From positions 38,088 through 85,884 of IMG/VR virus record IMGVR_UViG_3300029309_000009: 47,797 bases of DNA. The stretch is one strand, 5' to 3'. The stretch comes from a virus. Positions 32,095 to 36,164 of the stretch are shown in pieces. The translations under genes and the position numbers were made by a program. The notes under the pieces were generated by a model. That model did not search any database, was not told the origin of the DNA, and saw only the letters and a list, made by a program, of their open reading frames with translations. Positions within the stretch are counted from its first letter, which is position 1; each line of letters begins with the position of its first letter.

Positions 32095-32490
32095 ATGCCA
32101 GCATTACAACATGATACTAGATTAGTTATGACTATCTTATTTGTAGGGACAGTTAGCGGAGCAAATGTTTTCTTTTATGCTAGTTATGGGACTAGTTTCC
32201 CTTACACTACATTATCCCATGCAACCTTATTTGGACTTATTACAGTAGGAGCAATAATGATTCTGAAAGCAGTTTTTGATTTAGCACTAAACGAAAAAAT
32301 AGAAATGTATTTGCTAGACAGAAGGGTTAATCACTTTTGGGCGCAAAAGAGAAAAGAAGAAGAACAAAAGGGAAAGATTCGTGAAACGATGAAGAATTAT
32401 ACTACAACGTATAATACACAACCTCAATTTTCTTCTCAAATGGATACAGACGGAATAGGAAATGAATTTTTAGCGGCTATCGAACAGTGA
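32095..32490 (+). CDS. membrane protein with two transmembrane helices, 131 aa
   Basis: Transmembrane segments at residues about 10-30 (LVMTILFVGTVSGANVFFY) and 40-63 (HATLFGLITVGAIMILKAV), then a charged cytoplasmic-type helix (DRRVNHFWAQKRKEEEQKG) and a polar Gln/Thr-rich C terminus. Membrane proteins are unusual between capsid and connector genes. It precedes another membrane protein and the GTPase, so the three probably act together. Confidence 0.7.
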   Translation: MPALQHDTRLVMTILFVGTVSGANVFFYASYGTSFPYTTLSHATLFGLITVGAIMILKAVFDLALNEKIEMYLLDRRVNHFWAQKRKEEEQKGKIRETMKNYTTTYNTQPQFSSQMDTDGIGNEFLAAIEQ

Positions 32491-32500
32491 GGTGAATCCT

Positions 32501-32719
32501 TTGGTTTTTACCGGCTTTGATGAAAGTGCAATGGCCTATGATTTACAAAGGGCGCATTCTGCTGATATTTGGTTTCTTAAATTTAGAGCATATTTTTGGG
32601 GAACTTGTGCGGCTTTGTCGGGTTTTCTAATAGGAAATATTCTAGGAGTTTTTGATATAAATATTCTAGGATGGATTTTAAATTCTACACAGGATGCTTG
32701 GGAATATACATTTGGGTGA
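32501..32719 (+). CDS. small membrane protein, 72 aa
   Basis: The TTG at 32501 has GAGGTG 7 bases upstream and is preferred over the in-frame GTG at 32492, which overlaps that site. The N-terminal 30 residues are soluble (FTGFDESAMAYDLQRAHSAD), then an aromatic hydrophobic region (RAYFWGTCAALSGFLIGNILG) and a second hydrophobic stretch (INILGWIL). Stop overlaps the GTPase ribosome binding site (GGTGA). Confidence 0.6.
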   Translation: MVFTGFDESAMAYDLQRAHSADIWFLKFRAYFWGTCAALSGFLIGNILGVFDINILGWILNSTQDAWEYTFG

Positions 32720-33388
32720 TTGGATGTGTCAGTCCTTGCAGGTTTCGCAATAGTAGTTACTGAAGCAGCAATAGCATTTTACAAAAGAATACATGCTATA
32801 AATTTCGGTGTTTATGGTGCTACTAAAGTAGGCAAAACTACTTTGCACCATCAGTTAAGAACTAGAGGTGAAGTTCCCGATATTAAAAAAAGAACTGTTG
32901 GACTACATAGGGGAACTAGAAAAACCATAAAACTAGATGGAGAAACTCACACTTTGAAAACGGCTGATGTTGGGGGAGAATCTTTCTATTGGAAAGAATG
33001 GATAAAAGATATGCGAAAGCGTAAAGTGAATTATATTATTTTTATGATAGACCATAGACATTTAGAAAGTTCTGCAAATTTAGACCATCAATTAGCATGG
33101 AAATTTTTAGTAGATGCAATATGTTCTTCTACTTGGCCCGATGGAAAAAAGAAAAAAGAAGCAGACTATCCTATGGCTATTGGTATTTGGGCTAACAAAT
33201 ATGATTTGTGGGGAAAGCGTTATTCTCATGAAGGGGAAATACAAAATCACCCCATCTACGAGCCTTTTAAATATGGGATGCAAAAATTAAATGATAAAGG
33301 AATACCTACTTTCAAGTATATCGTATCGGCTAAGTCTCAGCCCGAAATGGTTTACAAAGGAGTTACAACAATGATAAAGGACTACTGA
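32720..33388 (+). CDS. membrane-anchored Arf/Ras-like small GTPase, 222 aa
   Basis: GTP switch protein with all five G motifs visible. G1 is GATKVGKT (33-40), switch region threonines at about 59-69, G3 DVGG (83-86, the Arf/Gα-type DxGG), G4 NKYD (159-162) and G5 SAK (203-205). Residues 4-20 (VLAGFAIVVTEAAIAFY) are a likely transmembrane or amphipathic anchor. The start is TTG 32720 or GTG 32726. A small GTPase in a tailed-virus head-tail operon is unusual; it may control virion assembly or host membrane processes. It lacks a typical C-terminal lipid signal. Confidence 0.85.
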   Translation: MDVSVLAGFAIVVTEAAIAFYKRIHAINFGVYGATKVGKTTLHHQLRTRGEVPDIKKRTVGLHRGTRKTIKLDGETHTLKTADVGGESFYWKEWIKDMRKRKVNYIIFMIDHRHLESSANLDHQLAWKFLVDAICSSTWPDGKKKKEADYPMAIGIWANKYDLWGKRYSHEGEIQNHPIYEPFKYGMQKLNDKGIPTFKYIVSAKSQPEMVYKGVTTMIKDY

Positions 33389-33393
33389 TTAAA

Positions 33394-34035
33394 ATGTATC
33401 AACAGAACATAATAGATAGACCAACATTTACTGCACCTTCGGCATTTTTACCGCCTTTGCAGAGAGCAAGAGCAAGTGGCCCCGTAGAGGAATATAAGTG
33501 CGTTAATATTAAACCCAAAAAGCAATTGAAGGAACTAGTTAAAGTTCTATATCCGGAAAAAAAATCATTTTTAAAAATTAAATATGGTAATAAATTTAAT
33601 TTAAAAGATAGGTGCGTAGTTTGTGGAATGCACCACGTTTGGGATAGTGGAGATTACATGAGACCACCTATTCCTCTAACACAAGTATTGAAGGGTAGGC
33701 CCATGAGAGGAACTTATTGTCCTAAACATGCAGGTATTCACAGACAAATGGAAATGCTTCAGCAACAAATTTTGGCAGAACAACATGGATTAGAATTTAA
33801 GGCATTTATTCCTAAAATGCCAAAGTTATCAAGAAAAGGCCCATTGAATACCTTAACCAAAGAAGATGTAGTCTCTCTTTCTAATGCCGGATGGCTTATT
33901 AAACCGCCCACATTAGGAGATAATAAGTCGGCTACTGATGAGGCGATTGAGATAGTAGGAGAAATAAATATTCTTACGGATAGATTAAATCATCTTATAA
34001 TACAAAAAGGGGCAAAAGTAGAGGGAGAGGACTAA
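33394..34035 (+). CDS. zinc-binding protein of the GTPase module, 213 aa
   Basis: Basic N-terminal third, then CVVCGMHHVWDSGDY (C-x2-C) and after about 30 residues YCPKHAG (C-x2-H), together a likely zinc site. A Met/Gln-rich helix follows (HRQMEMLQQQILAEQHG) and a polar C terminus. It begins five bases after the GTPase stop, so it may be its partner. No enzyme fold is recognised. Confidence 0.65.
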   Translation: MYQQNIIDRPTFTAPSAFLPPLQRARASGPVEEYKCVNIKPKKQLKELVKVLYPEKKSFLKIKYGNKFNLKDRCVVCGMHHVWDSGDYMRPPIPLTQVLKGRPMRGTYCPKHAGIHRQMEMLQQQILAEQHGLEFKAFIPKMPKLSRKGPLNTLTKEDVVSLSNAGWLIKPPTLGDNKSATDEAIEIVGEINILTDRLNHLIIQKGAKVEGED

Positions 34036-34036
34036 A

Positions 34037-34684
34037 ATGTTAGGGACAAGTAACAAGACAGTTTTGGGTGCTGTTCAAGCACAAGGAGACCAGCAATTCA
34101 AGAATGTAAATAATTTACTTTCTTTACAAGATAACCATGTAGAGGAATTTTTTCAATATCACGGAGATAAATTTTTGAAAAGTTTAGAGCAACTTATGGA
34201 AGATGTTACTGAGAGAGTAGTAAGCAGAATGCTTTCTAAACTTCAGTTAGTCCAAGATGATACTACTAAAACAATAAAGGTTCATCCCGATGCTCTTAGA
34301 GAATATGAAGGAATTACTTCTGCTAATATTGAGTTAGATGTTATGAATTTGTTAAATTCTGCGATAGATTCAGAGGTTATTAATCAAAGAAAGATGGCTA
34401 AGTCTCAATTCCTAGAGTCTCAAGGATTTAGCGGAGGGCAGCAACAAGTTGGAGTAGGTTTAGCAGTAGCAGGTTTGACAGGACAAACTCAACAATATAA
34501 TCAAGTTCAATCGGCAGTAGGAAACGGTTCAGGTTTCCCTATACCTCCTAGTGGTCAAGACATGTATGGGAGACCATATTGGTTAGATGCAAACGGTCAA
34601 GCATCATATGAAGCACCAAAGTCCGGACTTGGATTAGGTTCTAAAATACAAAAAACTGCTGCTTGGGCTAAATGGTTAATGTGA
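34037..34684 (+). CDS. hypothetical Gln/Gly-rich protein, 215 aa
   Basis: ATG directly after the previous stop. It has acidic helices (VEEFFQYHGDKFLKSLEQLMEDV, residues 30-55), then SKLQLVQDDTTKTIKVHPDAL, followed by a Gly/Gln-rich low-complexity section (GGQQQVGVGLAVAG...) and KTAAWAKWLM at the C terminus. Could be an adaptor or spike-associated protein; this is not recognised. Confidence 0.6.
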   Translation: MLGTSNKTVLGAVQAQGDQQFKNVNNLLSLQDNHVEEFFQYHGDKFLKSLEQLMEDVTERVVSRMLSKLQLVQDDTTKTIKVHPDALREYEGITSANIELDVMNLLNSAIDSEVINQRKMAKSQFLESQGFSGGQQQVGVGLAVAGLTGQTQQYNQVQSAVGNGSGFPIPPSGQDMYGRPYWLDANGQASYEAPKSGLGLGSKIQKTAAWAKWLM

Positions 34685-34685
34685 G

Positions 34686-36164
34686 TTGATTACTTTGCCT
34701 ACTAAAGTAATTGGTTTTGATGGCAGTATTGCCAATTGGCCTACTGACTATATAGATATAATAAGAAATACAGTTACAGGTAAAGATGGAGAAAGGTTTT
34801 CATTAGAAGGAAGTAAAAATATATCTACCCTTGCTCAAAATTCACAAATAAGTAATTTGATTGAATTTGATAATGATTCATTTGTAGAAGAAGGATTAGA
34901 AATATTGAAGGGAATTGAGAATGAAAAAATATTAACTTTAGCAAAAGAAGGAAATCCTTCCGCAGTTTTATATAGAGATTTAGAAAGAAGTAGAATATTT
35001 GATGATGTTAAAGATTTTACATTGAAAGATATGGAAGATTCAGATAATCTCTTAAAAATTATAGGTTATAGTTTATTTGGTAAAGTTACTGATAAAGAAC
35101 CCGAAGAAGAAATTGGCCTATATGAAGAATATGCGGATACACCGGCTGCTCAAAGATATGTAGAATCGTTTAGAAATATTCCGCAAACTGAAGCAGAAGG
35201 TAGAGATGCTCCAAATTTACCTGCTATGTTCATGACTAATAAGTATGAACCGATTGAAACCTTCACACTTAGAAGAAGAAAAATAGATACGTTAGATGAA
35301 CATTACGAAGTAGAAATAAAAAGAGCATCCTCTAGTGATAAGGTTTCAGAATTTTTCTATTTTAACTATGATAATACTTCACAAAGAAGAAATTTTTTAG
35401 AAAGATTTTATCCTAATCTAGTTTATAAAACAACAGGAAAAGATATTTTAGACTCTACTAGAGCCGTTTCGCCAAATGTTTTGAGTGGGGATATTACCAT
35501 TAATCTTGATTTTTATGAAAAACTAATAAAAAACGGAAAGTATGTTAAAGCCACCGAAGCACAAAAAATATTAAGTGATTTTTTGCAAGATGAATTTTAT
35601 AAAAAGTTCTTTTTCAAGTTTAAGAAATTTTTAGAAGAATCTAATAAGGCTGACCCTCTTAGAGATGAAAAATACAAAGTATATTTTTCAGGAACTCTTA
35701 GAAAAATTCCTGTTAAGGATGCTACGCCTAAAACATTTAAGGTCAAAGTAAAAATACAATCAGTGGAAAAAGGAAGATTTGACATTAGCCCCTTTGCTAA
35801 GAATATAAGAAGAAAAGGTAAGAAACCTAATATTGATGTTATTTTACAACAGGAAATAAAAAATAGATTGGTTGCTCCTAAAGATGTTTATATGCAAGCA
35901 GTAGAGGAATATATAGATAAGGAAAATGAACTATCAAATCTAAGCGATGAAGATACAAAACAACTTGAAGGTCAAAATATAGAGGTAGGTAAACTGCAAG
36001 AAATAATACGGGAAAGTAAAGAATCCGCTACAAAAAGAATGCAGGAATTTGAAGAATACTCTCAACGTAGAGAGTATAGATTTAATGAAAGATTAGCAGA
36101 CCACATAGAAGAAATAATGGATAGATTCTCTGTTGTAGAAAATGCAATAAAGGAGGGTGCTTGA
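34686..36164 (+). CDS. hypothetical structural-region protein, 492 aa
   Basis: TTG start at 34686 or 34695 (MPTKVIGFDG). It is charged and mixed alpha/beta, with a core rich in beta strands (YEVEIKRASSSDKVSEFFY), a basic stretch (FKKFLEES...FKVKVKIQSVEKGRFDI) and a C-terminal coiled coil from about 420 to 480 (KLQEIIRESKESATKRM). It precedes the connector gene and probably belongs to the virion, but no family is recognised. Confidence 0.6.
   Translation: MITLPTKVIGFDGSIANWPTDYIDIIRNTVTGKDGERFSLEGSKNISTLAQNSQISNLIEFDNDSFVEEGLEILKGIENEKILTLAKEGNPSAVLYRDLERSRIFDDVKDFTLKDMEDSDNLLKIIGYSLFGKVTDKEPEEEIGLYEEYADTPAAQRYVESFRNIPQTEAEGRDAPNLPAMFMTNKYEPIETFTLRRRKIDTLDEHYEVEIKRASSSDKVSEFFYFNYDNTSQRRNFLERFYPNLVYKTTGKDILDSTRAVSPNVLSGDITINLDFYEKLIKNGKYVKATEAQKILSDFLQDEFYKKFFFKFKKFLEESNKADPLRDEKYKVYFSGTLRKIPVKDATPKTFKVKVKIQSVEKGRFDISPFAKNIRRKGKKPNIDVILQQEIKNRLVAPKDVYMQAVEEYIDKENELSNLSDEDTKQLEGQNIEVGKLQEIIRESKESATKRMQEFEEYSQRREYRFNERLADHIEEIMDRFSVVENAIKEGA

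Follow-up and report, generated by a model that had tools for sequence, protein, structure and literature searches.

An Arf/Ras-type small GTPase and four partner genes form a fixed unit in magroviruses and other predicted archaeal viruses

The five genes and the virus that carries them

Five open reading frames on the plus strand, with spacing between them near zero, occupy positions 32095–34684 of the window, the 47,797-nucleotide stretch of DNA analyzed here (bases 38088–85884 of the 85.9-kb virus record IMGVR_UViG_3300029309_000009). The first (TMa, 32095–32490, 131 aa) has, by hydropathy, two hydrophobic helices near its N-terminus, followed by a charged, probably coiled-coil tail, and the second (TMb, 32492–32719, 75 aa) has a conserved 'DExxxAYDxQRAHSADIxFL' stretch ahead of one membrane helix, likewise predicted by hydropathy. 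The third encodes an Arf/Ras-type small GTPase (32726–33388; 220 aa when read from GTG 32726, or 222 aa if read from TTG 32720 in the ORF 32720–33388), and the fifth a Gln/Gly-rich (Q/G) partner (34037–34684, 215 aa) that is homologous in all three clades described below. A preliminary description, made from the letters alone, had placed two small membrane proteins and almost no spacers at this locus, and the ORF calls and helix predictions bear this out.

The fourth gene (33394–34035, 213 aa) encodes a predicted zinc-binding partner with a CxxC...CxxH arrangement (C74, C77, C109, H112). That a zinc protein follows the GTPase is upheld insofar as the candidate ligands are nearly invariant (C74 in 74/74 sequences, C109 in 74/74, and H112 in 73/74), zinc binding itself being a prediction. 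Its AF2 model is confident (pLDDT 81, with a core of about residues 20–130 mostly >90), and it had neither a Pfam match nor, by Foldseek and VIA, a similar solved fold; an ArfGAP-like fold was considered and rejected, as neither structural search returned such a match. Profile searches of PDB sequences with the alignment of the GTPase or of the zinc protein gave no match. In eight clade-1 loci (including L002, L009, L010, L012, L014, and L018), 0.4–1.2 kb of extra DNA lies between the GTPase and zinc-protein genes.

The structural operon of the window virus encodes TerL, portal, prohead protease, an SU10/HK97-type capsid protein, and tail tube. Genes in the other half of the record lie mostly on the other strand and include those for a thermosome, which we take to be a magrovirus gene, PolB, and an ATP-dependent ligase. 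Magroviruses have been reported to occur throughout the surface ocean. The features by which magroviruses (Magrovirales) are recognized, namely PolB, an archaeal ligase, a thermosome, an HK97 MCP, portal, TerL, opposed replication and structural modules, and a large genome, are all found in this record. Judged by its gene make-up (thermosome, PolB, ATP-dependent ligase, and HK97-type capsid), the window virus is thus a magrovirus, that is, a tailed virus of marine group II archaea (PMC10160649, PMC12999244). Directly 3′ of the block lies a gene for a 492-aa protein (34686–36164). Of 81 related loci only 9 have a recognizable counterpart, and a dN/dS of ∼0.22–0.25 marks it as a fast-evolving neighbor. 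We rejected a reading of 43.5–47.8 kb of the window as non-coding, since this region contains a single ORF, ≥1432 aa long, that runs off the contig. A scan for promoters and terminators found nothing above chance.

Motifs, fold, and selection of the GTPase

The motifs first noted in the 222-aa reading frame are all present and in the right order: G1 GATKVGKT, G3 DVGGE, G4 NKYD, and G5 SAK, with T59 (numbered from 32720) as the candidate switch-I residue and a Lys-rich insert before G4. Because the GTPases of relatives begin 'MSV..' at the position corresponding to GTG 32726, which is preceded by GGGTGA, that codon is probably the true start, giving 220 aa. The N-terminal helix (AF2 residues 3–24) is hydrophobic in clade 1 and weaker in clade 2 and therefore resembles an amphipathic or monotopic anchor more than an unambiguous transmembrane helix; the hydrophobic anchor of the preliminary description thus holds for clade 1 but should not be extended to a membrane-spanning segment.

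Across clades 1 (n = 57) and 2 (n = 81), GKTT of the P-loop (GxxxxGK[ST]), D83-x-G85-G86, and N159-K160-x-D162 are invariant in 138/138 sequences, so the nucleotide-binding residues have not been lost among relatives, and no P-loop family other than GTPases matches better. At the position after DxGG, equivalent to the catalytic Gln of Ras and Arf (Gln61/Gln71), almost every member of clades 1 and 2 has E or Q, and clade 3 has H. The claim of a complete Arf/Ras-type switch is therefore sound for G1, G3, and G4 but needs qualifying at the catalytic position, and this variability suggests that a partner may be needed for GTP hydrolysis. The G5 motif reads SAK in clade 1 and SA plus K, T, or M in clade 3, and it is degenerate in clade 2; an Arg-Thr pair, a possible source of the switch-I Thr, was seen by eye in all three clades. 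In a single relative a stop interrupts the GTPase frame and divides it into two (L143:10318–10983), perhaps a sequencing error.

Family models place the protein within the superfamily and at some distance from its named members. TIGR00231 (small_GTP) matches the window protein at E 2.5e-6 (27.4 bits; curated cut-off 42.5) and all 57 of 57 relatives; Pfam Ras matches the window protein at E 1e-3 (19.2 bits; cut-off 21.6), as does Roc (E 1e-3, also below cut-off), and MMR_HSR1, Roc, SRPRB, or Arf match most relatives. Because every single-sequence score falls below its curated cut-off, we regard the viral GTPase, on these profile comparisons, as a divergent branch of a known superfamily that lies outside every curated subfamily tested.

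The AF2 model (pLDDT 74, low in the P-loop and switch I) has helix 3–24 followed by the strand and helix order of a G domain, with G1, G3, G4, and G5 at the expected turns. Foldseek matched it to Ras/Rab proteins (E about 1e-7), and VIA ranked Arf6, Arl1, Arf1, and Arl8b at the top (Z 14.9–15.2, rmsd 2.7–3.0 Å over about 160 residues; Rab5 13.7), with the N-terminal helix also aligned to that of Arl2, Arl3, or Arf1 in some of the alignments (Z range overall 13–15). Motifs, family models, and structure thus agree on an Arf/Ras-type small GTPase, with Arf/Arl proteins the closest by fold. With Arf1, Arf6, and Arl1–3 it shares the fold (Z 14–15), DxGG, and a predicted membrane helix N-terminal to the G domain, but identity over the structural alignments is only ∼14–23%, the catalytic Gln is replaced by E or H in many viral members, and the Lys-rich insert before G4 belongs to the viral protein. 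The beta subunit of the SRP receptor (SRPRB) is also membrane-anchored and Arf-related, and the Pfam SRPRB model matches 28 of the 57 members (best 8e-5); however, the window protein scores 15.3 bits against a cut-off of 25, has no SRP partner, and is viral. Almost all viral models of similar predicted fold are Rab/Ras-like proteins of giant viruses; these are, as far as is known, host-derived single genes in viruses of eukaryotes, whereas the protein described here belongs to a core five-gene unit in archaeal viruses.

Purifying selection on the GTPase (dN/dS 0.04–0.09) is stronger than that on the capsid protein (0.06–0.12). Together with the 164 relatives found and the TIGR00231 match in 57/57 sequences, this value confirms that the five-gene observation is not due to chance.

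A unit of five genes in three clades

Searching IMG/VR with the window GTPase returned 164 relatives, the best 80 of these 164 at 61–95% identity, and other queries returned 389 (profile), 190 (clade-2 protein), and 7 (clade-3 protein), these being separate queries, with sequences shared between sets still counted in each. Three GTPase clades, each monophyletic in the tree, were distinguished: clade 1, with 57 members at 61–95% identity to the window protein; clade 2, with 81 members at ∼31% identity to clade 1, reached through a misbinned MAG; and clade 3, reached through the DNA pattern GKTT-x6-T-x-GE. The MAG, a public one labelled Maricaulis sp. IN14 (G001; L084/L249–L252), has three contigs with the viral GTPase, evidently misbinned. 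When contigs were instead found by the capsid protein, all those reaching far enough downstream carried the GTPase, and those without it end <2.6 kb from the capsid gene.

Iterated profiles unite all three clades for the GTPases (168 loci), the zinc proteins (162), and the Q/G proteins (158; clade 1 vs. clade 2, hhalign E 2.5e-53). The TMa proteins of clades 2 and 3 are homologous (hhalign E 3e-72), with a weaker relation to TMa of clade 1 (probability 42%, E 3e-4), where it was found in every locus complete at that end; TMb is homologous between clades 2 and 3 (E 2e-48), the clade-1 TMb being equated by position and topology only. The order TMa-TMb-GTPase-zinc protein-Q/G protein holds in 155 of 168 loci, and in each of the other 13 the missing gene falls at a broken-off end of the locus DNA. 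The block proposed for related viruses thus recurs, and the five genes are a fixed unit across three deep clades.

The unit appears to be undescribed in viruses, as the preliminary description had suspected. The GTPases of all three clades gave no tblastn match among INPHARED phages, with a limit of E 0.01 no PHROGs family matched the GTPase or any of its partners, and we found no description of the module in the literature covered, the scope of which leaves aside the papers defining magroviruses (Philosof 2017, Prabhu 2025).

Of cellular systems, the closest parallel is in Haloferax volcanii, in which ArvA (Arf-like, with an N-terminal amphipathic helix), ArvB, and the Zn-ribbon protein ArvC control vesicle budding (PMC10927574), so that euryarchaea offer a functioning precedent. 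Like the viral module, ArvABC combines an archaeal Arf-like small GTPase, an N-terminal membrane helix (predicted in the viral case), and a zinc-finger protein encoded nearby, and it acts on a membrane, as the viral module would; unlike it, the viral module is virus-encoded and includes a Gln/Gly-rich protein and two additional membrane proteins. ArvC/DUF2072 was not among the 12 families matched by any of 67 members of the viral zinc-protein family at E 0.1, and the viral Q/G protein had no match to DUF2073 (ArvB). Because the zinc protein has neither DUF2072 nor a similar solved fold, the claim is limited to analogy: the viral module may be said to work like the Arv system, not to be one.

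Among viruses, the Druskaviridae (HVTV-1 and HCTV-1) resemble the window virus in a related MCP (23–25% identity), in gene order, and in having a small TM protein, gp124, in the slot of the block, but no GTPase, zinc protein, or Q/G protein was present among the MCP-to-tail genes read. HVTV-1 gp124 (L237:14250–14582) and its HCTV-1 counterpart (L238:14212–14541), each with one TM helix and a coiled-coil-like region, may be remote counterparts of TMa.

Genomic position and possible roles of the block

The position of the block differs among the clades. In clade 1, including the window virus, it lies between the MCP/decoration genes and the head-tail adaptor and tail tube. In clade 2 (G016 and G017), TerL, HNH, portal, a large head protein, protease, and capsid are collinear with the window (as are adaptor and tail tube in G016), and the block is found about 6–10 kb upstream of TerL, ∼20 kb from the capsid gene. 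In clade 3 it follows a thermosome gene in 6/6 records, in which TerL (phrog_2), portal (phrog_12), and an SU10/HK97 MCP were not detected, although these records may be incomplete. The placement of the block inside a head-tail operon is therefore correct for the window virus and is not a conserved property. Because the block shifts as a unit relative to the head-tail genes and occurs where none were detected, gene order argues that it is a portable module and not a head-tail part.

The clade-3 records (L466 and G030–G035, the latter comprising L467–L479) are archaeal virus contigs of up to 110 kb with a thermosome and many small single-TM proteins. In G030 a HerA/FtsK-type ATPase, with close homologues in G032 and G033 (three records read), is accompanied by PolB, an archaeal primase, and an Rpb1-like RNA polymerase subunit. 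From this gene content the group is probably an undescribed tailless, membrane-containing lineage, with the reservation that in records that may be incomplete the absence of head-tail genes is no proof of a tailless virion. Besides the module, the window virus and clade 3 have in common PolB, a thermosome, a TFB-like protein, a receptor-fiber-like protein, and a 145-aa Ig-like protein. The fiber (740 aa at L082:3846–6481, and present also in clade 3) has VGIGTxSP repeats and matches the Bdellovibrio bd2133 adhesive fiber in PDB (E 6e-6). The fiber-like and Ig-like proteins being common to both, the shared late genes would be host-facing ones.

For a block that is kept while head-tail genes change, that encodes two membrane proteins and an anchored Arf-like switch, and that is shared along with host-surface genes, the best interpretation is a membrane machine. 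The preliminary description had listed virion egress, membrane remodeling, and subversion of a host GTPase as candidate jobs. We tentatively favor, with confidence just short of even, remodeling of the host membrane by an Arf-type switch that would be expressed late, be anchored in the membrane, and have partners of its own. In the scheme that we infer, the N-terminal helix would hold the GTPase against the inner side of the host membrane, TMa and TMb would be its receptor or platform, and the GTPase would pass through a GTP cycle. The zinc-binding protein would be a regulator or effector, possibly GAP-like, as it is the natural candidate for partner-dependent turnover in a GTPase without an invariant catalytic Gln, and the Gln/Gly-rich protein may provide a multivalent scaffold or coat. 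Synthesized late, alongside the virion proteins, the switch would bring its partners to the host membrane and polymerize them there, so deforming or opening the membrane, most likely for virion release or else for remodeling of the envelope during assembly.

The location of the block among virion genes is a point against this membrane-machine reading, as it would suit a virion component too. On that alternative the GTPase, the TM proteins, and the partners would be packaged or tail-bound and would act together at the host membrane, as a complex for penetration or for a post-entry step. The clade-1 position between decoration proteins and the head-tail adaptor, the single-TM gp124 in the same slot of HVTV-1 and HCTV-1, and the receptor-fiber-like protein common to magroviruses and clade 3 are consistent with such an entry role, which we nevertheless consider unlikely because a nucleotide switch is unusual in virions and the clade-2 block lies outside the MCP-adaptor neighborhood. 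It is rather more doubtful that the viral protein is a mimic acting, by competition or hijacking, on a host Arf/Ras-like protein of trafficking, vesicles, or cell division: four dedicated partner genes remain linked to it across clades ∼30% identical, and a simple mimic would need none, even if its Arf-like fold and the Rab/Ras-like proteins encoded by giant eukaryotic viruses offer precedent. A morphogenesis factor assisting capsid, neck, or tail assembly would account for the head-tail setting of the block in the window virus and for conservation of the GTPase at least equal to that of the capsid gene; we hold it improbable, since the block is mobile independently of the head-tail genes, is present in clade 3 where none were detected, and includes two membrane proteins. 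Finally, a vestigial or purely structural P-loop protein lacking a GTP cycle could explain the mixed E/Q/H position and the degenerate G5 of clade 2 but is scarcely credible given three motifs invariant in 138/138 sequences and so low a dN/dS.

Returning to the membrane machine, its broadest form, in which a portable viral Arf-type machine with partners unrelated to known systems has been exchanged between, or inherited by, tailed and non-tailed archaeal viruses and drives release or membrane acquisition, is a possibility that we put forward with greater reserve. To our knowledge, no GTPase-driven membrane-remodeling system has been known in prokaryotic viruses, and, if the portable-machine reading is true, this would be the first. 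We found no account in the literature of how magroviruses leave or reshape their archaeal hosts, and a core gene under tighter constraint than the capsid gene, encoding a membrane-type GTPase with fixed partners, offers a direct and testable handle on these steps. Arf-like membrane switches are central to eukaryotic trafficking and, more recently, to archaeal vesicles; the module described here would extend them into prokaryotic viruses.
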